From positions 719,001 through 783,000 of the forward strand of contig JAPFBL010000167.1 in the NCBI GenBank assembly GCA_026182355.1: a stretch of DNA of 64,000 nucleotides, in the 5' to 3' direction. The translations under genes were made by a program, and so were the position numbers. The notes beneath the pieces were generated by a model that worked only from the letters and a program-made list of their open reading frames with translations, was not told the origin of the DNA and did no database searches. The DNA comes from Hermatobates lingyangjiaoensis. Its lineage: Eukaryota; Arthropoda; Insecta; Hemiptera; Hermatobatidae. Of this stretch, positions 5,151 to 62,024 are shown piece by piece; positions within the stretch are counted from its first letter, which is position 1; each line of letters begins with the position of its first letter.

Positions 5151-5186
<36 letters not shown>
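5151..5186. repeat. (TA)n microsatellite bordering a PLE cassette
   Basis: Uninterrupted TA repeat directly abutting the left arm of the inverted repeat that starts at 5186. A matching tract (5567-5611) lies beyond the right arm. Confidence 0.9.
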
Positions 5187-5192
<6 letters not shown>

Positions 5193-5235
5193 GTTACAGC
5201 TAGAGAACACAAGAAAAAGGACGAACACTCACGAA

Positions 5236-5271
5236 TCTCGATTATTTCGGCGTCTTGCCGTCTTCAGGAGA
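5236..5271 (-). ncRNA. Minimal type I hammerhead ribozyme motif
   Basis: Reverse complement of the motif at 5441-5476. On the minus strand it reads CTGAAGA (complement of 5261-5267), a GGC/GCC helix II with an AAGAC loop, GAAA, then TAATC with C as the expected cleavage-site base. Bases TCTC before the core pair with GAGA after the cleavage site, forming helix I. Confidence 0.6.
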
Positions 5272-5440
5272 GTAGAAAGAAAGAAAATAAAATAAAAGGA
5301 GAAAGAATGAAGGAACGGAGACGTAAATGCGTCCACTGGCCGATGTAAACTCTGTTTACTGTTTACATCGGCCAGTGGACGCATTTACGTCTCCGTTCCT
5401 TCATTCTTTCTCCTTTTATTTTATTTTCTTTCTTTCTACT

Positions 5441-5476
5441 CTCCTGAAGACGGCAAGACGCCGAAATAATCGAGAT
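5441..5476 (+). ncRNA. Minimal type I hammerhead ribozyme motif
   Basis: CTGAAGA (5444-5450), helix II GGC-AAGAC-GCC, GAAA (5463-5466), a 2-bp helix III (A-U, U-A around one A), cleavage-site C at 5471, and helix I TCTC/GAGA (5440-5443 with 5472-5475). The self-complementary short helix III is the form reported in PLEs, where two copies can act as a dimer. Activity is inferred from fold only. Confidence 0.65.
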
Positions 5477-5566
5477 TCATGAGTGTTCGTCCTTTTTCTT
5501 GTGTTCTCTAGCTGTAACTTTAATTATTTGTCCGTTTGGACCGTCTGATTTCAATTTCAATTCAAA

Positions 5567-5611
<45 letters not shown>
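5567..5611. repeat. (TA)n microsatellite
   Basis: Separates the cassette ending at 5525-5543 from the next inverted cassette beginning about 5612. Confidence 0.9.
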
Positions 5612-5613
<2 letters not shown>

Positions 5614-5830
5614 AAAAAGATTTCACATAAACACGTGAAATAACAATCAATGATCAAACCACAATAAGAAATAGAAAAACAATACTAAGATCTTTCAACC
5701 GTAACAAGCGGTCTTCGTCAGAGTCAAAAACCCGTTAGTTCGGTTTTTTGTTTTTAACAGGACCGCTTGTTACAGTTGAAAGATCTTAGTCTTGTTTTCT
5801 CATTTATTATTGTGGTTTGATCATTGATTA
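5612..5830. repeat. Inverted ribozyme cassette, GACU lineage, right arm damaged
   Basis: Left and right halves share, in opposite orientation, the segment running from the ribozyme to a TGATCAAACCACAATAA-type end. The left arm holds a complete minus-strand hammerhead. In the right arm (about 5755-5790) the CTGACGA core is replaced by unrelated bases while helix II, GAAA and the AGTC helix I strand remain, so this copy should be inactive. The same lineage recurs at 21.72-21.81, 27.08-27.32, 42.93-43.03, 45.1, 50.15, 50.96-51.10, 58.72-58.86 and 59.10 kb. Confidence 0.75.
5683..5725 (-). ncRNA. Hammerhead ribozyme motif, GACU lineage
   Basis: Minus strand: CTGACGA (complement of 5715-5721), helix II GACCG...CGGTT with a 7-nt loop, GAAA, helix III AG-AU-CU, cleavage-site U. 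Helix I GACT pairs with AGT plus one mismatch here (AGTA in place of AGTC). Confidence 0.55.
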
Positions 5831-5910
5831 TATATATATGACATTATAATGTCATTATACGTCACGATGTGACATTACATTGTAATACACCCTACACTTT
5901 AGTCGTAAGC

Positions 5911-5950
5911 TTAGCCTGATGATGGTCTACGAGACCGAAACATGTCGTTG
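5911..5950 (+). ncRNA. Hammerhead ribozyme motif, CATG helix III
   Basis: CTGATGA (5916-5922), helix II GGTCT-ACG-AGACC (perfect 5-bp stem), GAAA (5937-5940), helix III of A-U and C-G closing a 2-nt AU loop (sequence ACATGUC), cleavage-site C at 5946, and a weak helix I (TAGC with GTTG, two wobbles). It stands alone here, with no inverted partner nearby, about 75 bp downstream of a short TA tract. Confidence 0.65.
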
Positions 5951-6187
5951 TTTTATTGAAAATAATATTTAGTTTGTTCTTAAATAGTGTTAGATATAAA
6001 TAGTTTTAGAATGTGTAGTTATGAAAAGAAAAGTTTGGGCCAGTTGATTTTTTTATTCCCCGAGGAACTATTACCCTGTAGGGCATTAGAGAAACTCTCA
6101 AAAAAGGTAACCAAACATGAAATTGGCATAACATTTTTAGAAATATATATATATATATATATTTAATTTAAGAATTTGGAAAAGACT

Positions 6188-6224
6188 AACCTGATGATGA
6201 CTAAAGAATAGTCGAAAGCTAGTT
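6188..6224 (+). ncRNA. Hammerhead ribozyme motif
   Basis: CTGATGA (6191-6197), helix II GACTA-AAGAA-TAGTC (perfect 5-bp stem), GAAA (6214-6217), helix III A-U/G-C without loop (AGCU), cleavage-site A at 6221, helix I AAC/GTT (6188-6190 with 6222-6224). Confidence 0.6.
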
Positions 6225-6286
6225 TTTATAAGTAAGTCTTAAAATTGTTCACATGCATTAAAGTGTTTCAAAAAAAAAGTGTCTCA

Positions 6287-6438
6287 ATGTCCTTTGGGCA
6301 ACTTATTTGGGAATTACCACCATGCATTCGTAAGACTGTCAGGAGACTGGAACAGCTTAGTTTAAAAGTCGTAAATGCCGAAGCTGCGGTGCATTTTAAC
6401 AAAATATGCCTCCAAGAAGATTTGCTGCCAACCTATAC

Positions 6439-6442: not shown

Positions 6443-6493
<51 letters not shown>
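6443..6493. repeat. (TA)n microsatellite
   Basis: Begins within the YT(K/N) codons of the PLE N-terminal frame and ends at a minus-strand cassette whose end reads AGTCCATTTC (complement of 6505-6520). Confidence 0.9.
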
Positions 6494-6495
<2 letters not shown>

Positions 6496-6499
6496 TTTC

Positions 6500-6720
6500 G
6501 ATGAAAAATCTGAAATGGACTAATACAGTTCAATGTACATAAAGAAACATGGAGAAAATAAAAACACACACTTACAGTCTCTAATTTTTGGTTGAACCGT
6601 CTTCAAGAGAGATATTCAGGTTTGTCTCTCTCGGTTCAACCGAAGATTAGAGACTGTGAGTGTGTGTTTTTAATTTCTCTATGTTTCTTTATGTACATTG
6701 AACTATATATATATAATCAA
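6500..6720. repeat. Inverted ribozyme cassette, UCUC lineage, damaged
   Basis: Arms (about 6519-6612 and 6635-6713) are reverse complements bearing the GTTCAATGTACATAAAGAAACAT end. The minus-strand ribozyme core reads TTGAAGA and its GAAA is AAAA; in the right arm the CTGAAGA core is deleted next to the centre. Neither should be active. The better-preserved member of this lineage is at 26.77-27.06 kb. Confidence 0.7.
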
Positions 6721-7151
6721 GCACAAAATAAAAAAAAATTTTAGTGGCCTGCACTCAACTTTACTATAAGTAAACATAATATCATACTTCTTCGGTATAT
6801 AATATATAATTTCGTCCCATTTAGGCATAGTAAAAATGTCTAAATGGGTGATCTATATTAGTCTTTCATTCCTAGAGGTAGTACACATAGTGATTGATCC
6901 ACTTATCAATATTTATGCTTATTTTTGTATATCACACCACTGAGGCGTATAATATCATTAGTATAAATACAGCAGTAATAACATTTTTGAAAACCAAAAA
7001 GGTAGATAAATTCTTTATTTATCAATACTAAAATATATTTACTTTTAGTAAAATATATTTTATATTCATCATGATTTGTTTTCTTGACCCAATATTTATA
7101 TGATGTAATTTTCTTGAGGTTTGAGGTCCAATGATAAAAACTAGTCCATTT

Positions 7152-7190
7152 GCCGACGTTTCGACATATATTTATGTCATCTTCAGGGCT
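7152..7190 (-). ncRNA. Hammerhead ribozyme motif, GAAACGTC type
   Basis: Minus strand: CTGAAGA (complement of 7180-7186), helix II GACATA-AATA-TATGTC (perfect 6-bp stem), GAAA, helix III A-U/C-G (ACGU), cleavage-site C, helix I GCC/GGC. Confidence 0.7.
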
Positions 7191-7295
7191 AACTGTTTTA
7201 TCAAAAAATTCCTCTTTATTACCGAACATATTAAAATGTAATAAATTACCAAATAGTAGTAATAGTAGTGCTAATTGTAAAACAATCATGTTGTA

Positions 7296-7333
7296 GCCCT
7301 GAAGATGACATAAATATATGTCGAAACGTCGGC
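7296..7333 (+). ncRNA. Hammerhead ribozyme motif, GAAACGTC type
   Basis: CTGAAGA (7299-7305), helix II GACATA-AATA-TATGTC, GAAA (7323-7326), ACGU helix III, cleavage-site C at 7330, helix I GCC (7296-7298) with GGC (7331-7333). A related motif with CTGAGGA core and CGTT ending lies at 53.97-54.01 kb on the minus strand. Confidence 0.7.
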
Positions 7334-7390
7334 AAATGGACTAGTATTTATCATTGGACCTCAAACCTCAAGAAAATTACATCACATAAA

Positions 7391-11340: not shown

Positions 11341-11392
11341 ATGTGTTTCTCCCTGCAATATACTCTAAATTTAATCTATAAGACCATATATA

Positions 11393-11647
11393 CAGGGTGT
11401 CTCAAAAAAATGTACTCACTCTTAGAATGACGAGAAAACCTTTATATATGAACATAGAGCGAAATGAAATAGCTTCAAATACATGAGACAAATGTAATTG
11501 AAGAATCAGCAGTTTGAACATTTACTGAACATGATTCTTCAATTACATTTGTCTCATGTATTCGATGCCATTTTATTTCACTCTATGTTCATAAATAAAT
11601 GTTTTGTCATCATTCTAAGAGTGAATACATTTTTTTGAGACACCCTG
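11393..11647. mobile_element. Fold-back MITE with TA target duplication
   Basis: Ends are CAGGGTGTCTCAAAAAAATG and its inverse, and nearly the whole 255 bp is an inverted repeat (about 105-bp arms with a short centre near 11520). TA dinucleotides flank it (11391-11392 and 11648-11649), as expected for a Tc1/mariner-superfamily MITE. No coding sequence. Confidence 0.75.
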
Positions 11648-11719
11648 TAGATACATAAATTTCAATTTAGATAAAGAAACATAGAAAAATTAAGTTTAGA
11701 CTTACAGTCTCTAATTTTC

Positions 11720-12960: not shown

Positions 12961-12979
12961 CTCAATTTTTACGATACTA

Positions 12980-13520
12980 AGGGTAGTAACATAAAAATAG
13001 AGTAGAACCTCGTAGTACGAGTGCCTCATTGTACGATACTAAGAGTGGCAACATAAAAATAGAGTAGAATCTCGTATTATGAGTGCCTCATTGTACGATA
13101 CTAAGAGTAGTAATATAAAAATAGAGTAGAACTTCGCAGTACGAGTGCCTCATTGTACGATACTAAGAGTAGTAACATAAAAATAGAGTAGAACCTCGTA
13201 TTATGAGTGCCTCATTGTACGATACTAAGAGTAGTAGCATAAAAATAGAGAATAACCTCGTAGTACGAGTGCCTCATTGTACGATACTAAGAGTAGTAAC
13301 ATAAAAATAGAGTAAGACCTCGTAGTACGAGTGCCTCATTGTACGATACTAAGAGTAGTAACAAAATAGAGTAGAACCTCGTAGTACGAGTGCCTCATTG
13401 TACGATACTAAGAGTAGTAGCATAAAAATAGAGAGTAACCTCGTAGTACGAGTGCCTCATTGTACGATAATAAGAGTGGTAACATCAAAATAGAGTAGAA
13501 CATCGTAGTAGGAGTAGGAG
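12980..13520. repeat. 62-bp minisatellite derived from a transposon terminus
   Basis: About eight to nine units of roughly 62 bp, each containing GAGTAGAACCTCGTAGTACG followed by AGTGCCTCATTGTACGATAC. The first part matches the pogo/Tigger-like terminal repeat seen at 40583 and 40944. The array runs straight into a single-copy stretch (13520-13745) related, in inverse orientation, to the interior of that element. Units differ by single substitutions and 1-3 bp indels. Confidence 0.8.
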
Positions 13521-13794: not shown

Positions 13795-14032
13795 TTATTG
13801 ATAAAAGTATCGACCGTGGAATAGAAACAAAACTAAAGTTTATCAGAACTCGGTCAGTTCTTCAGGTTCAAATTAAACTCTCATTGCCAACGTTTCGGTT
13901 TTTCTTTAAAACCTTTTTGTTAGGCAGAACTATAAAGTTTCGTAAACAAAAAAACTAAGTATTACATTAAGGATTTTGGTGTAATTTGAACCTGAAGAAC
14001 TGACTGAGTCCTGATAAACTTTAGTTTTATAT
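13795..14032. repeat. Inverted PLE-type cassette, TATCGACCGTGG lineage
   Basis: Left arm carries TATCGACCGTGGAATAG, the GTTTATC...GGTCAGTTCTTCAGG block and a GCCAACGTTTCGG motif; the right arm repeats AACCTGAAGAACTGACTGAG and AAACTTTAGTTTT inversely. On the minus strand GAAACGTTGGC follows a good helix II (GGTTTTAAAG...), but the expected core reads AACAAAAA, not CTGANGA, so ribozyme function is doubtful. The same lineage recurs at 21.85-22.49, 31.02-31.10 and 59.21-59.50 kb. Confidence 0.65.
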
Positions 14033-14047
14033 ATATATATATAATAT

Positions 14048-21853: not shown

Positions 21854-21857
<4 letters not shown>

Positions 21858-22490
21858 CAACTAAAAAATGATTGATCGGGATGCGGTCAGTTTCTTCCAC
21901 TTTTTAATTCAAACTCTCATTGCCGACGTTTCGATTTTATTCAAAATCTTTTTCATAGGCCTACAAACAGAGGAAAAACAAGAATTTTAATACGTACATT
22001 TTTAAACACAAACAAAAGAAATACACTATGAAAATTAAATACAATCTTAAGTATTAGGATAACAATGACAGAATAATAAAAAAGAGAAAAAGATGGAGTC
22101 TAACTATAAAAACAAAGTTTTTTTTTTTTTTTTTTTTTTTTACAATGTACTTACATAAGTAGGAGTATTGGCAATTGAAGGAACTATTACATTTTACAAA
22201 AAAAAAAAAAAAAAAAAAAAAACTTTGTTTTTATAGTTAGACTCCATCTTTTTCTCTTTTTTATTATTCTGTCATTGTTATCCTAATACTTAAGATTGTA
22301 TTTAATTTTCATAGTGTACTTCTTTTGTTTGTGTTTTAAAAATGTACGTATTAAAATTCTTGTTTTCCTCTGTTTGTAGGCCTATGAAAAAGATTTTGAA
22401 TAAAATCGAAACGTCGGCAATGAGAGTTTGAATTAAAAAGTGGAAGAAACTGACCGCATCCCGATCAATCATTTTTTAGTTGTATATCTG
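21854..22490. repeat. Palindrome with poly(T)/poly(A) centre
   Basis: Arms of about 285 bp (21854-22140 and 22200-22487) are almost perfect reverse complements. The inner ends are T22 and A22-type runs around a 60-bp non-repeated centre. Outer parts carry GACGTTTCGATTTTATTC (left) and its inverse, the GAAACGTCGGC ending of a hammerhead-like motif with a GATTTT/AAAATC helix II. The core reads CTATGAAAAA, not CTGANGA. No coding sequence. Confidence 0.8.
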
Positions 22491-22514
22491 TCACACGGTC
22501 GAGAAGTTATTAGT

Positions 22515-22525
22515 GTTTATATATA

Positions 22526-22563: not shown

Positions 22564-22572
<9 letters not shown>

Positions 22573-22609
22573 TAAGCAGTGACACATAAACAGAAACACA
22601 ACAAAGACT

Positions 22610-22655
22610 CACTTTTCAATATTTCGACCGTAATGGCGGTCGTCCTCAGGAGAAG
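22610..22655 (-). ncRNA. Hammerhead ribozyme motif
   Basis: Minus strand: CTGAGGA (complement of 22643-22649), helix II GACCG-CCATTA-CGGTC (perfect 5-bp stem), GAAA, helix III AUAU, cleavage-site U, helix I CTTCTC with GAAAAG (one mismatch). Lies about 235 bp beyond the endonuclease end in the same orientation. Confidence 0.7.
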
Positions 22656-22889
22656 AAGTGAATTGACGGAGGGACGACAGTCAACTGAAAGAACTCACTG
22701 GGTGAGGGCTAAAGCAGTGCTGCCGCAAAGGAGACAAATAAAAAAGGAACTAGGAAGTCGAGAGCAGAAAAAAAAAAAAAAAATGTTTTTGAAAGGTAGA
22801 AAAAGGTTAAGAAAAGAAAAAATAAAGAAAATATATAGAACAATTAAAACATAAAAAAATAAAAAAAAATTAAAAAATAAATAAATAAA

Positions 22890-23236
22890 TAAATAAATAA
22901 CGATTTAAATTCAAGCCAGGTTTCGAGCGTGCCCCTAGGAGCCAAATGTGGGCTTCCTCAGAAGCTTTTAAAGTAACTTGTCTGTTATCACTGGGGACTT
23001 GTTTAAGAACTTGGACTGTGAAACAATCATTGAAACTGAGATGGTGGGAATTAGCGTGAGTGGCGACAGGGAGACTGCTGCGTTTACCAACCGAAAGCCT
23101 GTGATTATTCATCCGAAGGTTCAGCATCGTAGATGCTAAACCAACGTAAAAAGCATCACATTGGGTGCATTTCAAGAGGTAAACGCAGTCAGTGGAGATA
23201 CAGGAGGAAGGACTGTGAATAGGGTAAGAATTAAGA
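22890..23236 (-). pseudogene. PLE GIY-YIG endonuclease domain, left arm
   Basis: Minus strand reads CVYLLKCTQCDAFYVGLAST, then LNLRMNNHRLSVGK and later EEAHIWLLGARSKPGLNLNR. VYLL and FYVG stand for the two halves of the GIY-YIG motif at normal spacing, with the catalytic-type Arg in LNLR, and a histidine (THANSHH) and acidic residue (EEAHIW) downstream, as in PLE endonucleases. In active elements this domain nicks target DNA to prime reverse transcription by the RT. Here the frame linking it to the RT part is shifted by one base near 23357, so the arm is broken. Confidence 0.8.
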
Positions 23237-23240
23237 TTAG

Positions 23241-23897
23241 TTAGAGACTCAAATGAAGACCCAGAATCAACAATGGGACAGGTAAGACATCTCCGACGTC
23301 CACAACGTTGTAGGCCACCGCTGCTTTGGGGATTCTGAATAAGTTTGCCGGCCGGTGGGAAAAAATATTTGAGAGATTGGGGGCTCTTCTAAAGGAAATG
23401 CGGGGCAACTGGTTAAAAACTGAAACGGTAGAGGGGGAAGAGGAAAGGATAGGGTAAAGTTCTTTAATAAATTTTCTTAATTTATGGACACCAGGGAAAT
23501 AATTTGTAAGAAGCGAAGCAGTAGTAGTGGGGTCTCTTCTGTTATTAGTGGAAAAGTTGACATTGGCAGGGATGATTCGGCTATTGATTAAATTGGGGGG
23601 ATAACCACGCTGAGTGAATTTGCATTTAAGTTTTTGAAGATTGGTTTCCCGATCTTGGATATTATTACAGAGGCGATGAAGACGGATTGAAAGAGACCGC
23701 GGGATAGATTTTTTAATATGAGGAGGATGACAACTTTTGTAATGGAGGTAGTTTTGGGCGTTGGTGGGCTTAACGTTAACAGACGTCGTGAAGGTCCCAC
23801 TGTTAAGAGTGATGTCAACATCTAAGAAAGTTATGTTGTAGGGGGAGAACATAACTTTCTTAGATGTTGACATCACTCTTAACAGTGGGACCTTCAC
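23241..23897 (-). pseudogene. PLE reverse transcriptase C-terminal part, left arm
   Basis: Minus-strand frame includes FLDVDITL, GTFTTSVNVKPTNAQNYLHY, SCHPPHIKKSIP and LSIRLHRLCNN. FLD.....G...T.V..KPT....YLHY.S.HP...K..IP....R..R.C is the well-known block following the YVDD box in PLE reverse transcriptases (thumb region). The upstream catalytic palm is absent: the copy is truncated at the palindrome centre and the first 16 residues of the open frame are read from the opposite arm. After SHRPANLFRIPK the frame diverges from the endonuclease frame because of a one-base deletion. Confidence 0.8.
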
Positions 23898-24291
23898 GAC
23901 GTCTGTTCACGTTAAGCCCACCAACGCCCAAAGCTACCTCCATTACAAAAGTTGTCATCCTCCTCATATTAAAAAATCTATCCCGCGGTCTCTTTCAATC
24001 CGTCTTCATCGCCTCTGTAATAATATCCAAGATCGGGAAACCAATCTTCAAAAACTTAAATGCAAATTCACTCAGCGTGGTTATCCCCCCAATTTAATCA
24101 ATAGCCGAATCATCCCTGCCAATGTCAACTTTTCCACTAATAACAGAAGAGACCCCACTACTACTGCTTCGCTTCTTACAAATTATTTCCCTGGTGTCCA
24201 TAAATTAAGAAAATTTATTAAAGAACTTTACCCTATCCTTTCCTCTTCCCCCTCTACCGTTTCAGTTTTTAACCAGTTGCCCCCAACTTAA
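23848..24291 (+). pseudogene. PLE reverse transcriptase C-terminal part, right arm
   Basis: Plus-strand counterpart of the left-arm RT piece, beginning NITFLDVDITL at the palindrome centre and differing by a few residues (SVHVKPTNAQSYLHY). It stops at 24289-24291 because a 14-bp duplication (CCAACTTAACCAGT region) introduces a frameshift and TAA. The other arm does not carry this lesion. Confidence 0.8.
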
Positions 24292-24297
24292 CCAGTT

Positions 24298-24809
24298 GCA
24301 TTTCCTTTAGAAGAGCCCCCAATCTCTCAAATATTTTTTCCCACCGGGCCGGCAAACTTATTCAGAATCCCCAAAGCAGCGGTGGCCTACAACGTTGTGG
24401 ACGTCGGAGATGTCTTACCTGTCCCATTGTTGATTCTGGGTCTTCATTTGAGTCTCTAACTAATCTTAATTCTTACCCTATTCACAGTCCTTCCTCCTGT
24501 ATCTCCACTGACTGCGTTTACCTCTTGAAATGCACCCAATGTGATGCTTTTTACGTTGGTTTAGCATCTACGATGCTGAACCTTCGGATGAATAATCACA
24601 GGCTTTCGGTTGGTAAACGCAGCAGTCTCCCTGTCGCCACTCACGCTAATTCCCACCATCTCAGTTTCAATGATTGTTTCACAGTCCAAGTTCTTAAACA
24701 AGTCCCCAGTGATAACAGACAAGTTACTTTAAAAGCTTCTGAGGAAGCCCACATTTGGCTCCTAGGGGCACGCTCGAAACCTGGCTTGAATTTAAATCGT
24801 TATTTATTT
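24298..24809 (+). pseudogene. PLE linker and GIY-YIG endonuclease, right arm
   Basis: Frame reads SFRRAPNLSNIFSHRAGK, GGLQRCGRRRCLTCPIV, then CVYLLKCTQCDAFYVGLAST and EEAHIWLLGARSKPGLNLNR. The CGRRRCLTC cysteine pair upstream of GIY-YIG fits the zinc-binding linker of PLE endonucleases. In this arm linker and endonuclease are in frame with the end of the RT part, unlike in the left arm, but the upstream 14-bp duplication separates it from the RT block. The frame runs into (TTTA)n after LNRYLFIYL. Role in an intact element: target nicking for integration. Confidence 0.8.
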
Positions 24810-25058
24810 ATTTATTTATTTATTTTTTAATTTTTTTTTATTTTTATTTTTTTTTATTTTTTTATTTTTTAATTGTTCTATATATTTTCTTTATTTTTTC
24901 TTTTCTTAACCTTTTTCTACCTTTCAAAAACATTTTTTTTTTTTTTTCTGCTCTCGACTTCCTAGTTCCTTTTTTATTTGTCTCCTTTGCGGCAGCACTG
25001 CTTTAGCCCTCACCCAGTGAGTTCTTCAGTTGATTGTCGTCCCTCCGTCAATTCACTT

Positions 25059-25102
25059 CTTCTCCTGAGGACGACCGCCATTACGGTCGAAATATTGAAA
25101 AG
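25059..25102 (+). ncRNA. Hammerhead ribozyme motif downstream of PLE endonuclease
   Basis: CTGAGGA (25065-25071), helix II GACCG-CCATTA-CGGTC, GAAA (25089-25092), AUAU helix III, cleavage-site U at 25096, helix I CTTCTC/GAAAAG with one mismatch. About 250 bp downstream of the endonuclease frame, and 60 bp before a GTCC-TGCC-GGAC mini-hairpin (25157-25168). Confidence 0.75.
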
Positions 25103-25156
25103 TGAGTCTTTGTTGTGTTTCTGTTTATGTGTCACTGCTTATTTTAATTGTTATTT

Positions 25157-25170
25157 GTCCTGCCGGACCG
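25157..25170 (+). other. Conserved TGTCC...GGACCG mini-hairpin
   Basis: GTCC-TGCC-GGAC followed by CG, 60 nt after the predicted cleavage site. Equivalent hairpins at the same distance follow the ribozymes at 5471 (5530-5541), 27437 (27498-27509) and 53731 (53796-53806), and TTTGTCC ends occur at 27062 and (minus) 58873-58890. It could be an RNA element of the terminal repeat or a downstream promoter element. Confidence 0.45.
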
Positions 25171-25184
25171 TTTTTCGTTTATCA

Positions 25185-25190
25185 TGGTAT

Positions 25191-26763: not shown

Positions 26764-26770
26764 TATATAC
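26724..26770. repeat. (TA)n microsatellite
   Basis: TA tract before the inverted UCUC-lineage cassette. Confidence 0.9.
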
Positions 26771-26821
26771 AGTTCAATGTACATAAAGAAACATAGTGAA
26801 ATTAAAATCACACACCTACAG

Positions 26822-26855
26822 TCTCTAATTTTCGGTTGAACTGTCTTCAGGAGAG
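26822..26855 (-). ncRNA. Hammerhead ribozyme motif
   Basis: Minus strand: CTGAAGA (complement of 26844-26850), helix II weakened by one change (GTT-C-AAC core pairs), GAAA, AAUU helix III, cleavage-site A, helix I TCTC/GAGA. Confidence 0.55.
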
Positions 26856-26972
26856 AGAAACCAAGCGCACTGGAACAGAGACGGTTGGGGTCTCCAACCC
26901 CAACTTAAAAGAGTTGGGGTTTCAGGAGAGGACAGTCTCTCCCTTCAGGAAGATAAGTTTCCCTCTTTTATC

Positions 26973-27006
26973 TCTCCTGAAGATGGTTCAACCGAAAATT
27001 AGAGAC
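26973..27006 (+). ncRNA. Hammerhead ribozyme motif
   Basis: CTGAAGA (26977-26983), helix II GGTT-C-AACC, GAAA (26994-26997), AAUU helix III, cleavage-site A at 27001, helix I TCTC (26973-26976) with GAGA (27002-27005). Confidence 0.65.
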
Positions 27007-27079
27007 TGTAAGAGTGTGATTTTAATTTCTGTATGCTTCTTTATGTACATTGAACTGTATTTGTCCAAGTATATATAAA

Positions 27080-27325
27080 GATTGATACTTATTGCAAAGA
27101 TTTTACTATAAACACGTGTAATAAAAATCAACGTCTAAACCACATTAAAAAAAATTGAACAAAGGCTAGAACCTTTCAACTGAAATAAGCGGTCTTCGTC
27201 ATAGTCAAACCAATGCTGATCGGTTTGAGTATCAGTTTGTCTCTGACGAAGACCGCTTGTTTCAGTTGAAATGTCTTAGTCTTTTTTCTGATTTCTTGAT
27301 GGGATTTAGACGTTGATGTGTATAT
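27080..27325. repeat. Inverted cassette, GACU lineage, both ribozymes mutated
   Basis: Arms carry ACACGTGTAATAA/..GATTTAGACGTTGATG ends and GCGGTCTTCGTCA / TGACGAAGACCGC. The plus-strand copy (CTGACGA 27243-27249) has lost pairing in helix II and III (GAAATGTCTT); the minus copy has ATGACGA in the core. Confidence 0.7.
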
Positions 27326-39290: not shown

Positions 39291-39457
39291 CATAAATGAA
39301 AGAACTTTTGATGGGGGTTTTGAAAATCAATTAAGTCTTCACTTACGAGTAAGTTGAAACTAACGCGTTGTTAGTTTTAACCATAAAGCCCTTTTGTGTG
39401 GAGACAATTGTTTTGAAATCCCCCATCATGATTAAATGTCATGCTAAACAGATTGTT

Positions 39458-41870: not shown

Positions 41871-42335
41871 AGAAAAGTTTGTGTTGAGCGATGGGGCAGA
41901 AAGTAATTTGTGTATGAAGCACACATGGGTCACGAAAAATAACTCGTGTGCTATAGCACTAGAGTAGGTCATAAATCATTAGTGTTGGTACACAATGGCA
42001 CTGAAATAACTGTTATGAGCACACAATGGCAGTAAAGGCTCAATCTTTGTATGACACACAATAGCATAAAAGTAATCTTGTATGAGCACACAAGGGCAAA
42101 AAAGTAATTGTGATGATCACAATAGGCATAAAAAGTAATTTGTGTATGAGCACACAATGGGCACAGAAAGTAATTTGTGTATGAGCACACAATGGGCAGA
42201 AAAAGTAATCTGTGTATGAGCACACAATAGGCATAAAAAGTAATTTGTGTATGAGCACACAATGGGCAGAAAAAGTAATCTTTGTATGAGCACACAATGG
42301 GCAGAAAAAGTAATCTTTGTATGAGCACACAATGG
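41820..42335. repeat. 35-bp minisatellite
   Basis: Unit GCAGAAAAAGTAATCTTTGT ATGAGCACACAATGG. It is regular from about 42120 to 42335 (six units) and increasingly degenerate leftward to 41820, where the seed seems to be single-copy sequence AGAAATAATTTGTGGTATGA of the 41.6-41.86 kb duplicate. Minus-strand frames reading CAHTQITF are artefacts. Confidence 0.8.
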
Positions 42336-42925
42336 GCTGCAACAAAAATAAAATAAAAGTGAAATTATCTAATACTGAATTATAGATAAAAAATATAATA
42401 CTGACATGAAATATGGGAAACAATGTGTATTACAGAATTATGTTAGTCATACAAATACATTATTTATATATCTAGTTACATACATGATAGGATAACAACA
42501 TTACATATTGTGGCATGCAATTTACATTCAGAGTTGCTAGATTCTATGTGAACAAATTATGTAATATTTATTTTTCAGTATGTATTGCATATTCACGAAG
42601 TGAACATGTGCTATATTCCAAGAAGTAAGCAAAGTGCTACAAAGGAAGCGCTTTGAGAGTAGGAGTGTTCGAGTATGCTGTGTAGGAAGATGATGAACAC
42701 TGTGAACGGCTTGTGATGTCGCAAGGTTGTTTTTTCCTTTATGTTCACCTTGCATTCTCAATCCTGACATTATTGCATATTGCTACTTCAGTTATAAACA
42801 GAAGTAAAAAAAAAAAATTATTTATGTCTTCGTCACCTTAGTGTACCTTAGTCACCTTAGTCACCAAATCTGTAAACATAGGTACATATTTTATATATAT
42901 CAACATCTAAATCAGGTTGGTAATT
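42336..42925. other. AT-rich non-coding DNA
   Basis: Nothing recognised. Confidence 0.45.
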
Positions 42926-47050: not shown

Positions 47051-47116
47051 TAATATTAAAATTATATTAGAATTAGTAATAATACATTCCGTCATACCTC
47101 GTAAAGTCTCTGAAAA

Positions 47117-47159
47117 GCTCGACCGGTTTCGGGTCCGTCTGGATCCCATCTTCAAGAGC
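47117..47159 (-). ncRNA. Hammerhead-like motif, U at core position 3
   Basis: Minus strand: TTGAAGA (complement of 47149-47155), GGG/CCC-closed helix II with an 11-nt loop, GAAA, helix III AC-CG-GU, cleavage-site C, helix I GCTC/GAGC. Confidence 0.5.
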
Positions 47160-47245
47160 ACCTAACTGACTGTGAATGTTGTTTTCCTATAACCTACCTA
47201 TATATAGCAAGGCTATAGGAAAACAGCATTCACAGTCAGTTAGGT

Positions 47246-47288
47246 GCTCTTGAAGATGGGATCCAGACGTACCCGAAACCGGTCGAGC
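47246..47288 (+). ncRNA. Hammerhead-like motif, U at core position 3
   Basis: TTGAAGA (47250-47256), GGG/CCC helix II, GAAA (47275-47278), helix III AC-CG-GU, cleavage-site C at 47284, helix I GCTC (47246-47249) with GAGC (47285-47288). The C3-to-U change would turn the C3-G8 core pair into a wobble and may slow cleavage. Confidence 0.5.
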
Positions 47289-47423
47289 TTTTCAGAGACT
47301 TTACGAGGTATGACGGAATGTATTATTACTAATTCTAATATTACTAACCTCAGTGGAACTAACCCATTAACTATATTAAAATTATAGTAATCCGTCTTAC
47401 CTCGTACCCTGCTGCTGAAGCTT

Positions 47424-47463
47424 CTCGGACCGGTTTCGGGCGTCACCCATCTTCAACAAGAAC
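47424..47463 (-). ncRNA. Hammerhead-like motif, U at core position 3
   Basis: Minus strand: TTGAAGA (complement of 47450-47456), helix II GGG-TGACG-CCC, GAAA, AC-CG-GU helix III, cleavage-site C, helix I TCTTG with CGAGA including one wobble. Confidence 0.5.
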
Positions 47464-47518
47464 TGATCAACGAGAACTACGGAGTCCTACCTTTCTTGTT
47501 TCTAGTTCTTGTTGATCA

Positions 47519-47560
47519 GTTCTTGTTGAAGATGGGTGACGCCCGAAACCGGTCCGAGAG
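47519..47560 (+). ncRNA. Hammerhead-like motif, U at core position 3
   Basis: TTGAAGA (47526-47532), helix II GGG-TGACG-CCC, GAAA (47545-47548), cleavage-site C at 47554, helix I TTCTTG (47520-47525) with CGAGAG (47555-47560), six pairs including two wobbles. The longest helix I in the window. Confidence 0.5.
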
Positions 47561-47635
47561 CTTCAGCAGCAGGGTACGAGGTAAGACTGATTACTATAAT
47601 TTTAATATTAATTATACTAACCTCTGTGGTAATGA

Positions 47636-49870: not shown

Positions 49871-50245
49871 ATAAAAAAAAAAAACGGTCAACGAGGACAA
49901 CAGGTTAAATTACGCAGAAGAGACTCTACTTTCCTCATCATCACTTATTTTCCTCGTGCTAATAGGCAGGGTGCAGTTATCGGGGAGTTTTTCCTTATAC
50001 TTACTGTACTCCTTTTTTCCCCAAACATCCCTTTCTGGCCATTTGTCCTTTCCTGCACTTTCACCCTTTCAAAATACCACTCTTCCCTCCCATTCTTCTC
50101 AACCTTTCACCAGATGTTTTCTGCATCTAGTGTTTCAGTTGGGTTTTTGACTCTGACGAAGACCGCTTGTTACGGTTGAAAGATCTTAGTCTTGTTTTCC
50201 CATTTCATATTGTGGTTTGATCATTGATTCATCATGGTATATATA
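49871..50245 (+). mobile_element. PLE 3' region, GACU lineage
   Basis: After an A13 run, a GC-richer then pyrimidine-rich segment (50000-50130) leads into the intact ribozyme and the TGATCATTGATTCATCATGG TATATA end. The position of the C/T-rich tract upstream of the ribozyme matches the 3' untranslated region of the 24.8-25.1 kb copy. No recognisable endonuclease remains. Confidence 0.55.
50149..50191 (+). ncRNA. Hammerhead ribozyme motif, GACU lineage, intact core
   Basis: CTGACGA (50153-50159), helix II GACCG-CTTGTTA-CGGTT, GAAA (50178-50181), helix III AG-AU-CU, cleavage-site U at 50187, helix I GACT (50149-50152) with AGTC (50188-50191). All core positions are as expected. Confidence 0.75.
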
Positions 50246-50410: not shown

Positions 50411-50507
50411 TATATATATATATATATTATATATATATATATTATATATTTATATAGACATACGTATGAATTAAATACCACAATAAAGAAATATGTATTA
50501 ATTAAAA

Positions 50508-50545
50508 TGCTCTAAGGCCTTTCGTAACAACATCATCAGAGAGCT
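50508..50545 (-). ncRNA. Hammerhead ribozyme motif
   Basis: Minus strand: CTGATGA (complement of 50533-50539), short helix II GT-TGTT-AC, GAAA, helix III AG-GC-CU, cleavage-site U, helix I GCTCT/AGAGC (5 bp, perfect). Confidence 0.6.
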
Positions 50546-50658
50546 AAATGAAACAAAAAAAAATATAAAACAAGTTAACCTGGTTGATTCTGGTGCTTGG
50601 TTGAGTCAATCAACCAGGTTAACTTGTTATTATATTTTTTGTTAGTTTGTTTCATTTA

Positions 50659-50694
50659 GCTCTCTGATGATGTTGTAACGAAAGGCCTTAGAGC
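50659..50694 (+). ncRNA. Hammerhead ribozyme motif
   Basis: CTGATGA (50664-50670), helix II GTT-GT-AAC, GAAA (50680-50683), AGGCCU helix III, cleavage-site U at 50689, helix I GCTCT (50659-50663) with AGAGC (50690-50694). Confidence 0.65.
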
Positions 50695-50959
50695 ATTTTA
50701 ATTAATATATATTTGTTTATTGCGGAAGGGAGAGAGGATTAAGTAGGCATGAAGGGCAGGGCACTGAACTCTGCTACCTCTTTTATTAACTTATATCTAG
50801 TATCACATTTTTTTTTCTAAACTAGAGATTACATTTAGGTAAGTGTGTAGGATATTAACACAGGGGTTATTGTCTTTTATGAATAGGGCTTCGAAGATAT
50901 GTAATCTGAAGTCGTCTCGGAACCTTTGTAGGATGGTTGTGCCTTCCTATAAAGCTATA

Positions 50960-51105
50960 TATGATCAAACCACAATAAGAACTGACGTTGGGTTTTTGAC
51001 TCTGACGAAGACTGCTTGTTAAGAAAGATCTTAGTCTTGCTTTCCCATTTTCTTTAGTGTGGTTTGATCATTTATTGTTATTCCACGTGTTTATGTGAAA
51101 TCTTT
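50960..51105. repeat. GACU-lineage cassette with helix II deletion
   Basis: TGATCAAACCACAATAAGAA (left end) is mirrored by the right end (TGTGGTTTGATCATT). The central motif keeps GACTCTGACGAAGACTGC and AAAGATCTTAGTC, but the 3' side of helix II is deleted (TGTTAAGAAAG), so it should be inactive. Confidence 0.7.
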
Positions 51106-53500: not shown

Positions 53501-53558
53501 TATATATATAAAATAAATTCAAAACGAAGGAAACACACAGAAAGACACAGACATAACT

Positions 53559-53597
53559 CACATGGATATTTCGACCATCGTCGTCATCAGGAGGTGT
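53559..53597 (-). ncRNA. Hammerhead ribozyme motif
   Basis: Minus strand: CTGATGA (complement of 53584-53590), helix II GAC-GATG-GTC, GAAA, AUAU helix III, cleavage-site C, helix I CACCTC pairing with the downstream CATGTG with mismatches. Confidence 0.6.
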
Positions 53598-53699
53598 GAA
53601 GAGCGAAGAGCGAAGAGTCCCGCAGTAAGACAGGGCGGCGACTGCGGGACTGAGTCGCCGCCCAGTCTTACTGCGGGACTCTTCGCTCTTCGCTCTTCA

Positions 53700-53738
53700 C
53701 ACCTCCTGATGACGACGATGGTCGAAATATCGATGTGA
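53700..53738 (+). ncRNA. Hammerhead ribozyme motif
   Basis: CTGATGA (53706-53712), helix II GAC-GATG-GTC, GAAA (53724-53727), AUAU helix III, cleavage-site C at 53731, helix I CACCTC (53700-53705) with GATGTG (53732-53737), one mismatch. Confidence 0.65.
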
Positions 53739-53840
53739 GTTATGTCTGGTCATTCTGTGTGCTTCCTTCGTTTTGAATTTATTTTATTTAAAAAAGTCCG
53801 CTGGACCGTTTCTTTTAATTGTAATATTTATATATATATA

Positions 53841-53967: not shown

Positions 53968-54006
53968 ACCAACGTTTCGACATACATTTATGTCCTCCTC
54001 AGGGCT
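53968..54006 (-). ncRNA. Hammerhead ribozyme motif, GAAACGTT type
   Basis: Minus strand: CTGAGGA (complement of 53996-54002), helix II GACATA-AATG-TATGTC (perfect), GAAA, ACGU helix III, cleavage-site U, helix I GCC with GGT (one wobble). It lies about 440 bp downstream, on the same strand, of a PLE endonuclease remnant. Confidence 0.65.
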
Positions 54007-59035: not shown

Positions 59036-59039
59036 ATAT

Positions 59040-59071: not shown

Positions 59072-59072
59072 G
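59026..59072. repeat. (TA)n microsatellite
   Basis: TA tract immediately before a minimal plus-strand ribozyme unit. Confidence 0.9.
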
Positions 59073-59087
59073 TATGTATATATATAC

Positions 59088-59175
59088 AGGGTTTTTGACT
59101 CTGACGAAGACCGCTTGTTACGGTTGAAAGATCTTAGTCTTGTTTTCCCATTCTTATTGTGGTTTAATCATTGAT
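59088..59175 (+). mobile_element. Minimal solo ribozyme cassette between TA tracts
   Basis: Only about 88 bp: CAGGGTTTTTGACT, ribozyme, TTGTTTTCCCATTCTTATTG and TTTAATCATTGAT, with TA repeats on both sides. The smallest complete unit in the window. Confidence 0.65.
59097..59139 (+). ncRNA. Hammerhead ribozyme motif, GACU lineage, intact core
   Basis: CTGACGA (59101-59107), helix II GACCG-CTTGTTA-CGGTT, GAAA (59126-59129), AG-AU-CU helix III, cleavage-site U at 59135, helix I GACT/AGTC. Identical to the motif at 50149-50191. Confidence 0.75.
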
Positions 59176-59204
59176 ATATATATATATATATATATATTTA
59201 TAAA

Positions 59205-59500
59205 AGTATCGACCGTGGAATAGAAACAAAACTGAAGTTTATCGGGAGTAGGTCAGTTCTTCATGTTCAAATTAAACTCTCATTGCCAACGTTTCGGTCT
59301 TTATTTTAATCCTTTTTCATAGGCCTACAAAAACAGAGGAAATATAAGAAATAATACAATCATTCAAAAATCAAACATACATAAAAGTGCAATTAGTTAC
59401 AATTAAGAAATGAGAGTTTAATTTGAACCTGAAGAACTGACCGAGTCCCGATAAACTTTAGTTTTGTTTTTATTCCACGGTCGATACTTTATCAATCTAT
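59205..59500. repeat. Inverted PLE-type cassette, TATCGACCGTGG lineage
   Basis: Arms of about 100 bp (TATCGACCGTGGAATAGAAA, GGTCAGTTCTTCATG, AATTAAACTCTCATT) around a 120-bp centre. The left arm has GCCAACGTTTCGG and CATAGGCC, the non-canonical ribozyme-like end; the right arm lacks it. TA tracts lie outside both ends. Confidence 0.75.
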
Positions 59501-59514
59501 ATATATATATATAT

Positions 59515-60530
59515 TACGAATGGCTTCGTAACCATTGTTCTAGTTCAACGATTAATTTGCAAGTAAATTGCAATAATAAAAACAAATTTAAAAAGGGATA
59601 AGCCATGTTTCGACCGAATATATGAAGAAAGAGGCTTTAGATTGTTAAATTGTGTAGGTCAAATTTTAATTCCATAGGTGTTTACTCCTTCAATTCAGTT
59701 TCTTTAGATGCAGCATATTCAACTGAAGTGGCTTTTATTTCATTTAATTATTGAGTATATATTTCAATTTATTTTTGTAATTAGTGCTTATTACATACTA
59801 TATTTGCTAATTTTAAAATATTTTATTGCATTTAATTATTATTTATTAATATTGGGTAATCAGTATCAAAATGTAGCATGTCAAAAGTATGACAAAATCT
59901 CTCCAAGGAGTGGTATTACTTCAAAAGATGAAAAAACGAAAATATAAGAATGTATAGGGATGAGAAAGTGATACAAATTATGAAGGTACTTGTTCAATAT
60001 TATATGGTCTATTCCTGGAAAAGACAATTTTCAAAAAATGACGATACCTGTGCTTTTATCATACACCAGTTAAATTTTTATTTTATGGCTGCAGATAAAG
60101 CTAAAACATCCATGTGTTGAAAACTCTAATGTTATATGGTTCGAAAACATCTAGGCTCTCAGGGCAGTAACAGTTTTCTATACACATTTTGTTTAATAGT
60201 TTGATATCGAGATTATTTTATAGGAGTTTTGGCTGTAAAGATAAAAAGAAACTGATAAAAGAATATTTCCTGATTCGAAACCTTTATTTATGTTTGTGGA
60301 TTGTTTCAACAGGAATTAGTTTTTTGCCAGGTTCAGAATAGTTAATCAATAAAGCTAATTATATAATATTAGATTCCAGCCCTTGTGGTTACCCAGTCTA
60401 AATAACATACCTAAATGTAGCTTATAGTTTTACATCACGTGCTTCCAGAGTAGCCCTTTGCTCTGTTGCATTCAAACTATTTTGCTTTACTGATGATGTT
60501 GTGTTTCAGTTTATGTGTCACTGCTTTTTT
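59515..60530. other. AT-rich non-coding DNA
   Basis: No gene. A GTTTCGACCGAATATATGAA phrase near 59610 may be a dead ribozyme scrap. The 79-codon frame at 59.71-59.95 kb is hydrophobic and low-complexity. Confidence 0.4.
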
Positions 60531-60533
60531 AAT

Positions 60534-60536
<3 letters not shown>

Positions 60537-60583
<47 letters not shown>
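60537..60583. repeat. (TA)n microsatellite
   Basis: TA tract beginning, on the minus strand, right after the YTH codons of the PLE N-terminal frame. Confidence 0.9.
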
Positions 60584-60589
<6 letters not shown>

Positions 60590-60767
60590 ACAAAGGCAGC
60601 AGGTCTTCCCTTAAGCATATGTTATTAAAATAAGCAGCAGCTTCTGCATTGACCAGTTTCTTGTTGACACTCTCTACTTTTCGTATCACTTTGCGGTGAG
60701 ACTCTGGTAGCTTCCAAAGAAGGTTAGCAAAAGACATTAACACACACAATAAACATAGGTCAAACAC
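60584..60767 (-). pseudogene. PLE N-terminal ORF fragment
   Basis: Minus strand: MSFANLLWKLPESHRK, VNKKLVNAEAAAYF and NNICLREDLLPLYTH, then TA repeats. It aligns with 6.29-6.44 kb residue by residue (MSF..L.W.LP...RK....E.....VNAEAA..FN.ICL.EDLLP.YT). A preceding in-frame Met gives MFDLCLLCVL as a possible longer start. It is the inverted twin of 62.08-62.23 kb. Confidence 0.65.
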
Positions 60768-60825
60768 GAAAAACTAAATCTTAATCACTGTATTAATCAC
60801 TAAATTAACAAACTAAATAAAAATG

Positions 60826-60864
60826 CGTACAAGCTTTCGGCTCTCATTGGCCATCTTCAGGTAT
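60826..60864 (-). ncRNA. Hammerhead ribozyme motif
   Basis: Minus strand: CTGAAGA (complement of 60854-60860), helix II GGCC-AATGAGA-GCC, GAAA, AGCU helix III, cleavage-site U, helix I TAC/GTA. Confidence 0.6.
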
Positions 60865-61133
60865 AAACTAAAATTAATAAAGTCTAAAGCACTATAGTTA
60901 GAATAAAATAAAATACTTGAACAGTGTCTAAAAAATTACTGTACAACAGGAAGTGAATCTAAGGTGGGAGTGAGGGGAAGGGGAGGTATGCATGGCGACA
61001 GGGTCGGCCAAAACTACCTGTGGTTCGTTCACCTCCCTCTCTCCCTTACAAGCTTGAAAGTATTGTCAAAATTCTTAAAGCTAGGCACAGAGTTGAAATC
61101 ATTGCTCTGGACATTTAGCCTTAGCCTCATACA

Positions 61134-61800
61134 TCAAGAGTTAGAACGTTCAACCCAGGTGCTGGTTAATAATGGTTTTTCGAACCAGGAGGTCGCCAAC
61201 TCAATTAAAACTTTTTGCAATAAATGGTATGCTAGTAACGAGACAGCCCCGCCTACAGGAGAGACTATCCGCCTGTTTTACAAAGGATACTTTAGTACGG
61301 AGCATAGACAAGAGGAACGCGCAATACAAAAACTGGTAAATAACAATATTCAGACTACCAACGAGCAGGACAAGATAAGGCTGACTATATATTATAGAAG
61401 TAAAAAGACATCGGACCTACTACTCTACAATAGACCGAGAACTGAGACCCGGAGCTACAACGTAGTCACCTTGTGTATGAGTACAAATGCAGTATAGGGG
61501 ACTGTGCAACCCTCCCATCCTCATACATAGGGATGACTACTACGAAGCTTTCGCGGTGTCTAACTGTCCACCTGAGCACTGGGGCCCCTAAAAACCATAC
61601 GGAGGACGCTCACCGAGTAAGACTGACGAGGCAGGCCCTGATTGAGGGCACTTCCATTCTGCAAGTGTGCCACGAGCCTGGCAGGTTACATATACTGGAG
61701 GCTCTGTATATTAAAGAATGTAACCCCAGGCTAAATGTCCAGAGCAATGATTTCAACTCTGTGCCTAGCTTTAAGAATTTTGACAATACTTTCAAGCTTG
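61134..61800 (+). pseudogene. PLE linker and GIY-YIG endonuclease, frameshifted
   Basis: Frame 1 (to 61497) contains RSTQVLVNNGFSNQEVAN, an RT thumb-side helix region, then FYKGYFSTEHRQEERAI and KTSDLLLYNR. A shift moves the reading to a second frame (from 61473) with YEYKCSIGDCATLPSSYIGM TTTKLSRCLTVHL and LHILEALYIKECNPRLNVQ. YEYKC and SYIGMTT are the two halves of the GIY-YIG motif, followed by the usual R and H region, and EALYIKECNPRLN is the conserved C-terminal end with the metal-binding Glu. CSIGDC adds a cysteine pair between the halves. It differs strongly from the 24-kb endonuclease, so a separate PLE lineage. Confidence 0.7.
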
Positions 61801-61983
61801 TAAGGGAGAGAGGGAGGTGAACGAACCACAGGTAGTTTTGGCCGACCCTGTCGCCATGCATACCTCCCCTTCCCCTCACTCCCACCTTAGATTCACTTCC
61901 TGTAGTACAGTAATTTTTTAGACACTGTTCAAGTATTTTATTTTATTCTAACTATAGTGCTTTAGACTTTATTAATTTTAGTT

Positions 61984-62024
61984 TATACCTGAAGATGGCC
62001 AATGAGAGCCGAAAGCTTGTACGC
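61984..62024 (+). ncRNA. Hammerhead ribozyme motif between endonuclease and N-terminal ORF
   Basis: CTGAAGA (61989-61995), helix II GGC-C-AATGAGA-GCC, GAAA (62011-62014), AGCU helix III, cleavage-site U at 62018, helix I TAC (61986-61988) with GTA (62019-62021). It lies 190 bp after the endonuclease end and 90 bp before the next ORF start. Confidence 0.65.

Follow-up and report, generated by a model that had tools for sequence, protein, structure and literature searches.

Hammerhead motifs with an extra core nucleotide in two-armed, mostly one-tailed insertions of putative Penelope-like elements of Hermatobates lingyangjiaoensis

Introduction

Hammerhead ribozymes share a conserved core: C3 U4 G5 A6 N7 G8 A9, then G12 A13 A14, the pair A15.1-U16.1, and H17. 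The motifs of vertebrate Penelope-like elements (PLEs) have an extra A after A9. Minimal versions occur in PLEs, where they reportedly cleave as dimers, to go by the title of a 2017 paper by Lunse, Weinberg and Breaker. Here we analyze hammerhead motifs in a 64,000-nucleotide stretch of the genome of the insect Hermatobates lingyangjiaoensis (GenBank assembly GCA_026182355.1, contig JAPFBL010000167.1, positions 719,001 to 783,000 of the forward strand), which we call the window. We consider it probable that these motifs and their surroundings have one explanation: minimal hammerheads in which a single additional nucleotide (N10) separates A9 from helix II, lying near PLE 3′ ends, combined with insertion by reverse transcription primed at both ends of the target DNA.

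How do these motifs compare with the closest described systems? Minimal hammerheads are described as part of PLEs, with a role that is unknown (PMC6155905, PMC7761336), and PLE hammerheads, inverted pseudo-long terminal repeats (pLTRs), and the tail are all already known. The window motifs share with the minimal PLE hammerheads (Cervera and de la Pena 2014; Lunse 2017; known to us from citations and reviews) the core, the reduced helix III, and the setting in PLE terminal repeats. They differ, as far as citations and reviews show, in the extra nucleotide after A9, and also in number: some fourteen lineages crowd into 64 kb, and the 910-Mb genome yields pattern matches of the order of 240,000. 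The plus strand of chrysanthemum chlorotic mottle viroid has the same extra residue between A9 and G10.1, an A10 that lowers the trans-cleaving rate moderately (PMC3705267). That viroid is a single case, whereas here the residue is mostly U or C and sometimes A, in many lineages of unrelated helices. The Poseidon PLE of the lizard Anolis carolinensis (PAc) combines a reverse transcriptase (RT) with a GIY-YIG domain, a hammerhead, and AT-rich targets; in vitro it cleaves both strands and extends them, and its tail of 30 to 40 nucleotides is bounded by two adjacent RT start sites on the RNA (PMC11167929). PAc copies are tandem with the hammerhead at the start of the open reading frame (ORF), whereas here hammerheads lie downstream of coding pieces, two-armed copies are arranged head-to-head at (TA)n, and each of the two genomic ends would usually rely on a start site of its own.

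Penelope elements of the rotifer Adineta vaga also have inverted pLTRs, head-to-head palindromes, and an optional 31-bp tail on one pLTR (PMC3846280). Copies in A. vaga are very few, while here they are very many and mostly without coding, so that the occurrence of one tail per insertion becomes countable; our reading also differs from the proposal made for A. vaga, with two primed ends here and self-priming there. Animal retrozymes, finally, are short elements with type I hammerheads, but they are tandem, have canonical hammerheads, and form circular RNA, and neither tandem arrangement nor canonical layout is the rule here (PMC7229834). Published counts of type I hammerheads exceed 6,000 for a coral, where they form 16 families, and are ~5,000 for a mussel, and up to 120,000 retrozymes are given for the axolotl (PMC7229834).

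This genome bears on the way in which PLEs insert and on the reason for their hammerheads. Its very high copy numbers let insertion ends reveal mechanism through two defined outer ends, a variable inner junction, and one tail. Many hammerhead lineages with one extra core nucleotide amount to a natural experiment on that nucleotide, and broken-core lineages that still multiplied make the need for catalysis directly testable.

Results and Discussion

Are the hammerhead motifs in the window more than chance? A strict scan of both strands demanded helix I of at least 3 bp, CTGANGA, 0 or 1 nucleotide, helix II of at least 3 bp, GAA, a helix III of the form A..T of 2 to 8 nucleotides, and an H other than G. 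It returned 13 sites, and helix III is fully palindromic in 11 of them; dinucleotide shuffles (n = 300) gave a mean of 0.03 and a maximum of 2, an excess over shuffled sequence that agrees with the preliminary description of this DNA. Scrambled cores run on the real sequence gave at most one site each (n = 200), except for one draw that was the true core itself. A relaxed scan, allowing one core mismatch and 0 to 2 extra nucleotides, found 23 sites, of which 19 are palindromic in helix III; 60 shuffles averaged 1.15 sites, with 0.17 palindromic ones. We dropped two relaxed-scan sites, 45610 and 60252, as likely chance, leaving ~21 sites in 12 lineages, and also an apparent site at 24739 with its copy at 22961, which is the coding end of a GIY-YIG ORF and whose H17 would be G. 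An Rfam search gave no hammerhead at the gathering cut-off or at E ≤ 10; several subthreshold Rfam matches to miRNA precursors overlap palindromes.

One might read such motifs as chance matches, or as inverted repeats of DNA transposons that merely resemble ribozymes: the sequence is AT-rich and holds many short inverted repeats, and candidate 24739 is indeed coding. The strict-scan controls speak against this, as do 141,688 genome matches versus 486 for a reversed pattern and the presence of GIY-YIG and RT-like coding between or beside the arms. The controls refute this explanation, to which we give next to no credence, and sequence statistics confirm the window motifs as real.

The scans recovered ten lineages with an intact core (A to J) and two, N1 and N2, with TTGAAGA (C3 to U). 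Reading by eye added decayed copies and two further decayed lineages, L (13.8, 21.9–22.4, and 59.3 kb) and M (~14.4 kb). The earlier count of about fourteen is thus a fair one: ten intact-core lineages, two with U3 (47.0–47.6 kb), and two decayed. Every helix sequence that the preliminary description had named was found, and its claim of covariation also holds. With one representative for each of the 12 scanned lineages, 94 of 96 cells of helices I, II, and III are paired, whereas partner shuffles (n = 5000) averaged 62.8 and never exceeded 74. The test is partly circular, given that the representatives came from scans demanding pairing; the shuffled-sequence scans are the fair control. Helix III is fully palindromic in 11 of the 12 representatives, the exception being lineage A (AUAAU), and the motifs are minimal type I-like hammerheads with paired but unrelated helices, as first described. 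The complete conserved core is present in 10 of 12 representatives, with U3 in N1 and N2; core and non-G H17 were imposed by the scans, and the shuffle and scramble controls of the strict scan carry the weight.

The core layout is one point on which the first account departs from the sequence, in that it places helix II immediately after CUGANGA. In intact sites a single unpaired nucleotide intervenes: N10 is present in 12 of 12 lineage representatives (U in 8, C in 3, A in 1). A scanner allowing 0, 1, or 2 extra nucleotides found N10 in 14 of 14 window sites and in all 19 sites of a 200-kb genome sample (20 pieces of 10 kb taken at a fixed offset of numbered contigs, not at random), shuffles of which gave a mean of 0.2 sites (n = 20). 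The hammerhead definition, with helix II directly after A9, describes none of these sites. Across the genome of 909,949,117 bases, the N10 pattern CTGANGANGN{6,14}CGAAA has 141,688 matches versus 1,831 without the extra base, and reversed-pattern controls have 486 each for the N10 and canonical layouts; these and the following genome counts are by pattern, with repeat counts being lower bounds and broken copies possibly included. Some of the 1,831 canonical-layout matches look like N10 copies in which N10 has turned G.

The first 100 listed N10 places, found with no pairing demand beyond the closing G-C, fall into 23 clusters. Helix II of at least 3 bp forms in 74 of these 100, versus 16 after shuffling of the interior letters, and in those 74 the N10 letter is C in 34, U in 32, A in 8, and G in none. 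Because the viroid offers a precedent, we file N10 hammerheads as a variant of the hammerhead. We found no prior description of the dominance of N10, or of the one-tail rule set out below, in a literature search that did not reach the primary PLE-hammerhead papers, and the novelty of N10 is thus not established. Searches built on the canonical layout may undercount N10 hammerheads. In minimum-energy folds, an N10-G12 pair extends helix II in 7 of 12 lineages; this predicted pair would have to open for catalysis. By computed dimer energies, the helix III duplex alone is unfavorable for AUAAU, AUAU, and AAUU, that is, in 4 of 12 lineages.

Is the window exceptional in its density of hammerheads? 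Lineage G alone has 96,970 genome matches within two mismatches and lineage I has 11,046 within one mismatch over 39 nucleotides (control, 0 in both cases). Since helix II of the lineage G copies ends with U, most of them are expected to fall outside the 141,688, and the genome total, as a sum over patterns that presumably overlap little, is of the order of 240,000 pattern matches. With the same scanner, the 200-kb sample has 19 strict sites and the window 14, against 6.1 expected from the sample rate, a 2.3-fold excess (P ~0.016) in a window chosen as rich-looking. The packing, which the preliminary description had singled out as the unusual feature, is therefore a property of the genome with a modest local excess. 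Arms of 13 window references span 8,985 of the 200,000 sampled bases. By a hand list, the window holds about 28 pieces, mostly tiny insertions, of some fourteen PLE lineages, a few of them with coding pieces, and the sampled rest of the genome resembles it.

What carries these hammerheads? The sequence points to Penelope-like retroelements, and the PLE origin suggested at first is borne out by GIY-YIG coding between the arms, pLTR-like arms, tails of 28 to 41 nucleotides, and (TA)n targets. GIY-YIG matches in Pfam all lie below the curated cut-off: E = 0.00029 for the ORF of locus L010 (21.5 bits, cut-off 22.6), E = 0.0026 for an ORF between two lineage I arms (locus L032), and E = 0.014 for the lineage E piece in the window. 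The L010 ORF, 320 amino acids long, has a lineage G arm, at the locus edge, on one side and a tailed lineage G arm on the other. It also matches the NCBIfam group I intron endonuclease at E = 0.00023, below that model's cut-off, and has no match among solved structures. By eye it contains a YVDD box followed by what we take to be further RT motifs, and the RT-like piece of lineage E is 28% identical to the RT-like part of this ORF (tblastn, E = 6e-9). The lineage J ORF pieces are GIY-YIG by eye only, with no GIY-YIG match in Pfam. Protein searches with two PLE pieces found no relatives outside this genome, and none on viral contigs. Pattern scans of viral contigs returned five stretches, of which the two examined look phage-like and unrelated to PLEs; a phage-like contig, L002, has a hammerhead-like site at 6267–6300 (CTGATGA GGCC...GGCC GAAACGTC) in which, in contrast to this genome, helix II follows A9 without a gap, as in the canonical layout.

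The pLTR-like arms were described by ten references, from nine lineages with L in two forms. In the window, a small hairpin, GTCC...GGAC, is common to the tails of A, E, and I, and the lineage G tail has a different one, TTTCACGTGTTTATGTGAAA; such hairpins may mark the second start site. Of 30 (TA)≥10 tracts, 24 touch an element end, a count that is partly circular given that the ends were set by hand. A test on hammerhead positions, which uses no hand-set ends, finds such a tract within 150 nucleotides downstream of 9 of 21 hammerheads (null mean 1.5; reached in 5 of 5000 shifts) and within 250 nucleotides of 11 of 21 (reached in 13 of 5000 shifts). The (TA)n usually lies outside the two-armed copies; D, N1, and N2 are without it.

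Two-armed copies have inverted arms with hammerheads pointing outward, an arrangement that, like the tails and the (TA)n targets, is absent from the preliminary description. Among the first 100 listed of the 11,046 lineage I sites, all 19 neighbor pairs within 400 nucleotides point outward and none is tandem; in this lineage, dimers in tandem in cis are therefore not the norm. The 19 pairs show 18 different spacings, and the palindromes therefore seem to be made anew at each insertion rather than copied as units.

How are tails distributed over the two arms? The one-tail pattern was first noticed in the window and then scored, for lineage G, against one real tailed arm, in the window, in eight loci matching its hammerhead, and in the 200-kb sample. 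Exactly one tail was present in 25 of 26 scored two-armed lineage G insertions (14 left, 11 right), and the remaining one has two; a second reference arm, on largely overlapping insertions, again gave 25 of 26. Tail-less ends lie mostly at reference positions 90–92 (range 87–99) and tailed ends at 115–120, and inner ends vary widely. Nine other reference arms, from eight lineages, gave one tail in 19 of 22 scored insertions, or 11 of 14 without the eight window insertions that had defined the boundaries. Together with lineage G, this last set gives one tail in 36 of 40 (P ~9e-8 against one half), and outside the window alone in 32 of 34 (P ~3e-8).

A two-ended mechanism would produce this pattern. 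The PLE protein would cut both strands of AT-rich DNA, and each DNA end would prime reverse transcription on PLE RNA, one end starting before the tail (site 1) and the other after it (site 2). Both cDNAs would run toward the RNA 5′ end and be joined wherever they stop, giving a palindrome of variable length in which one 3′ end carries the tail and the other lacks it. The lizard element provides a biochemical parallel in vitro, with cutting and extension of both strands and a tail delimited by two adjacent RNA start sites (PMC11167929). What the DNA sequence itself shows is the fold, the N10 layout, the outward arms, the tails, the (TA)n targets, and GIY-YIG and RT-like coding between or beside the arms.

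Fold-back self-priming, the published proposal for rotifer Penelope elements (PMC3846280), could also make palindromes, and in A, E, and I the arms do meet with centers of 9–10 nucleotides. A fold-back copy would, however, repeat the tail and flank at the other end, which the 25 one-tailed lineage G insertions out of 26 do not show; the concentration of tail-less ends at a single position and the varying spacings of lineage I pairs also count against it. We favor two-ended target-primed reverse transcription because fold-back repeats the tail whereas two independently primed cDNAs need not, and we judge fold-back unlikely. Still harder to accept is the view that these are retrozymes, that is, nonautonomous elements with type I hammerheads whose circular RNA arises from two tandem hammerheads. 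Type I-like hammerheads in short noncoding repeats, as in animal retrozymes (PMC7229834), would suit it, and one tandem pair, 231 nucleotides apart, occurs among the listed lineage G places. None of the 19 close lineage I pairs among the first 100 listed sites is tandem, however, copies stand head-to-head with a PLE tail at (TA)n, helix III is minimal, and the canonical layout is nearly absent; we regard the retrozyme reading as very improbable.

Several observations weigh against two-ended insertion of N10-bearing PLEs. In vitro, the lizard enzyme showed no start-site difference between strands (PMC11167929), and this result either opposes a strict rule or means that the rule arises later in the reaction. 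Scoring left out two-armed insertions with an unscorable end (eight of lineage G, six of other lineages), and arms were paired by distance alone, so that neighboring insertions may be joined in places. Exceptions include the lineage G insertion with two tails (arms 132 nucleotides apart, perhaps two insertions), a lineage L insertion at 59.2–59.5 kb with two tails, and two lineage F cases with none. One-armed copies are common, with 17 of 27 scored in lineage G tailed and 10 tail-less. Arm identity in lineage G averages 0.90 within an insertion (15 pairs), hardly above the 0.89 between insertions, so there is no clear signal that both arms came from one shared RNA. No coding piece matches an RT family in Pfam or NCBIfam. 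N1 and N2 (C3 to U) and L (G5 lost, by eye), the cores of which are expected to be dead, have several copies, and none of 52 lineage G inner arm ends lies within 4 nucleotides of the predicted cleavage site. We also considered a leading and a trailing polymerase, with the tail-less arm being the longer; in lineage G it was longer in 10 insertions and shorter in 7, with 9 equal, which lends no support.

What, then, is the hammerhead for? In lineages A, D, E, F, G, H, and I, the tail-less 3′ end follows H17 by 36–60 nucleotides; in B, C, and J, the end lies 196–220 nucleotides beyond H17, with the (TA)n taken as the end for B and C. Since none of the 52 inner ends lies near the predicted cleavage site, cleaved RNA does not visibly define lineage G insertions; the role of cleavage may be in transcript processing, or it may be the protein that makes use of the fold. 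The latter can be put more sharply: the fold may be retained chiefly because the PLE protein docks on it close to the start sites, with catalysis weak or off and with N10, which as a C or U can pair with G12, helping to keep it off. The multiplied lineages with damaged cores (TTGAAGA in N1 and N2; G5 lost in L, by eye) fit this idea, as do the N10-G12 pair in minimum-energy folds of 7 of 12 lineages and the lack of G at N10 among the 74 scored of the first 100 listed sites. The lizard PLE hammerhead does not cleave in the absence of protein, and catalytic mutants leave insertion in vitro unaffected (PMC11167929). In the viroid hammerhead, C or G at N10 is very detrimental, including the change of A10 to C (PMC3705267). 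The same viroid hammerhead, however, is 3- to 4-fold faster with U (PMC3705267), the N10 letter in 8 of 12 lineages here. Ten of 12 lineages keep every core letter while their helices differ, although the scans favored intact cores, and the lizard paper mentions earlier self-cleavage of a PLE hammerhead at 3–25 mM magnesium (PMC11167929). Docking is in our view a serious contender that falls somewhat short of even chances.

More speculatively, PLE insertion could be intrinsically two-ended, with one cDNA begun at each of two RNA start sites and one such site per DNA end, the tail being the distance between these sites, every complete insertion having one tailed and one tail-less end, and the N10 fold nearby being gated by protein, its extra nucleotide holding it silent until a complex of two RNAs and two DNA ends forms. 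We put this forward tentatively and with some doubt.

Elements and Other Features of the Window

Lineage by lineage, the insertions illustrate the two-armed architecture. In the first few kilobases, the lineage A two-armed PLE insertion (5187..5567; arms 5184–5350 on the minus and 5361–5527 on the plus strand) has a tail at the right end only and (TA)n on both sides; its scanned hammerhead lies at 5440..5475 (+), with helix III AUAAU and a minus-strand partner at ~5236–5271. Beside it, a lineage G two-armed insertion (5611..5828) combines a left arm bearing a hammerhead (~5683–5724, −) and a tail with a tail-less right arm. Scanned plus-strand hammerheads follow for lineages B (5912..5950; helix III ACAUGU) and C (6188..6224; helix III AGCU). 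A lineage F two-armed insertion (6493..6703) is tailed at the left end only and has decayed cores. The lineage D two-armed insertion at 7072..7390, tailed at its left end, has hammerheads at ~7152–7189 (−) and ~7296–7333 (+), and its flanks share, by eye, AAAATATATTTTA, a possible 13-bp target duplication.

Coding pieces occur in the two-armed PLE insertions of lineages E and J. That of lineage E (22566..25187) has ~1.3 kb per arm around a 10-nucleotide center, a tail, by eye, at the right end only, and hammerheads at ~22616–22651 (−) and ~25063–25098 (+). Its RT-like ORF piece (23842..24291, +) has an inverted copy at 23241–23906 (−) and no Pfam match; its GIY-YIG piece (24273..24830, +), which gave the Pfam E value of 0.014, has an inverted copy at 22870–23388 (−). 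The lineage J insertion (60584..62226) is tailed at the left end, with hammerheads at ~60828–60863 (−) and ~61986–62021 (+) and ORF pieces at 60907–61497 and 61446–61820 (+).

Among the remaining copies, a lineage F two-armed insertion (26769..27068; hammerhead 26973–27005, +) was scored tail-less at both ends and shows a short right remnant by eye; a lineage G two-armed insertion tailed at the left end adjoins it (27069..27320). Further lineage G copies comprise a one-armed copy with a scanned hammerhead at 50149..50191 (+; helix III AGAUCU), an insertion at 50957..51104 with a left arm of 22–24 nucleotides and a full, tailed right arm, and a one-armed copy between (TA)n tracts with a scanned hammerhead at 59097..59139 (+). 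The lineage H two-armed insertion (50457..50725; hammerhead 50659–50694, +) is tailed at the left end. That of lineage I (53511..53828; hammerhead 53704–53733, +, with a minus-strand partner) is tailed at the right, and a solo D-like copy has a strict-scan hammerhead at 53968..54005 (−).

Other lineages have altered cores. N1 is a palindrome at 47062..47341 with C3-to-U hammerhead-like folds at ~47117–47159 (−) and ~47246–47288 (+), and N2 a related neighboring palindrome at 47390..47600 with folds at ~47422–47462 (−) and ~47518–47562 (+). Both have TTGAAGA and helix III ACCGGU, with differing helix I; neither is at (TA)n, and the two are similar in their 3′ flanks. Lineage L (13801–14036, 21855–22517, and 59191–59497) keeps helices I to III (GCC/GGC, ACGU). 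Its G5 is apparently lost in the 21.9- to 22.4-kb and 59.3-kb copies, and the core is further altered at 13.9 kb.

Repeats of other kinds are also present. Minisatellite arrays occupy 3307–3852, 12970–13515, 39452–40189, and 41900–42337, with units of 27, 62, 57, and 35/70 bp, respectively. A 122-nucleotide inverted repeat at 11387–11653, with ends CAGGGTGTCTCAAAAAAATGTA and flanking TA, is presumably a short DNA transposon of mariner-like type. At 62241–62480, next to the J insertion and (TA)n, there are repeated and inverted pieces of GTTGTTGAAGGCCACAGCGG, perhaps the end of another element.

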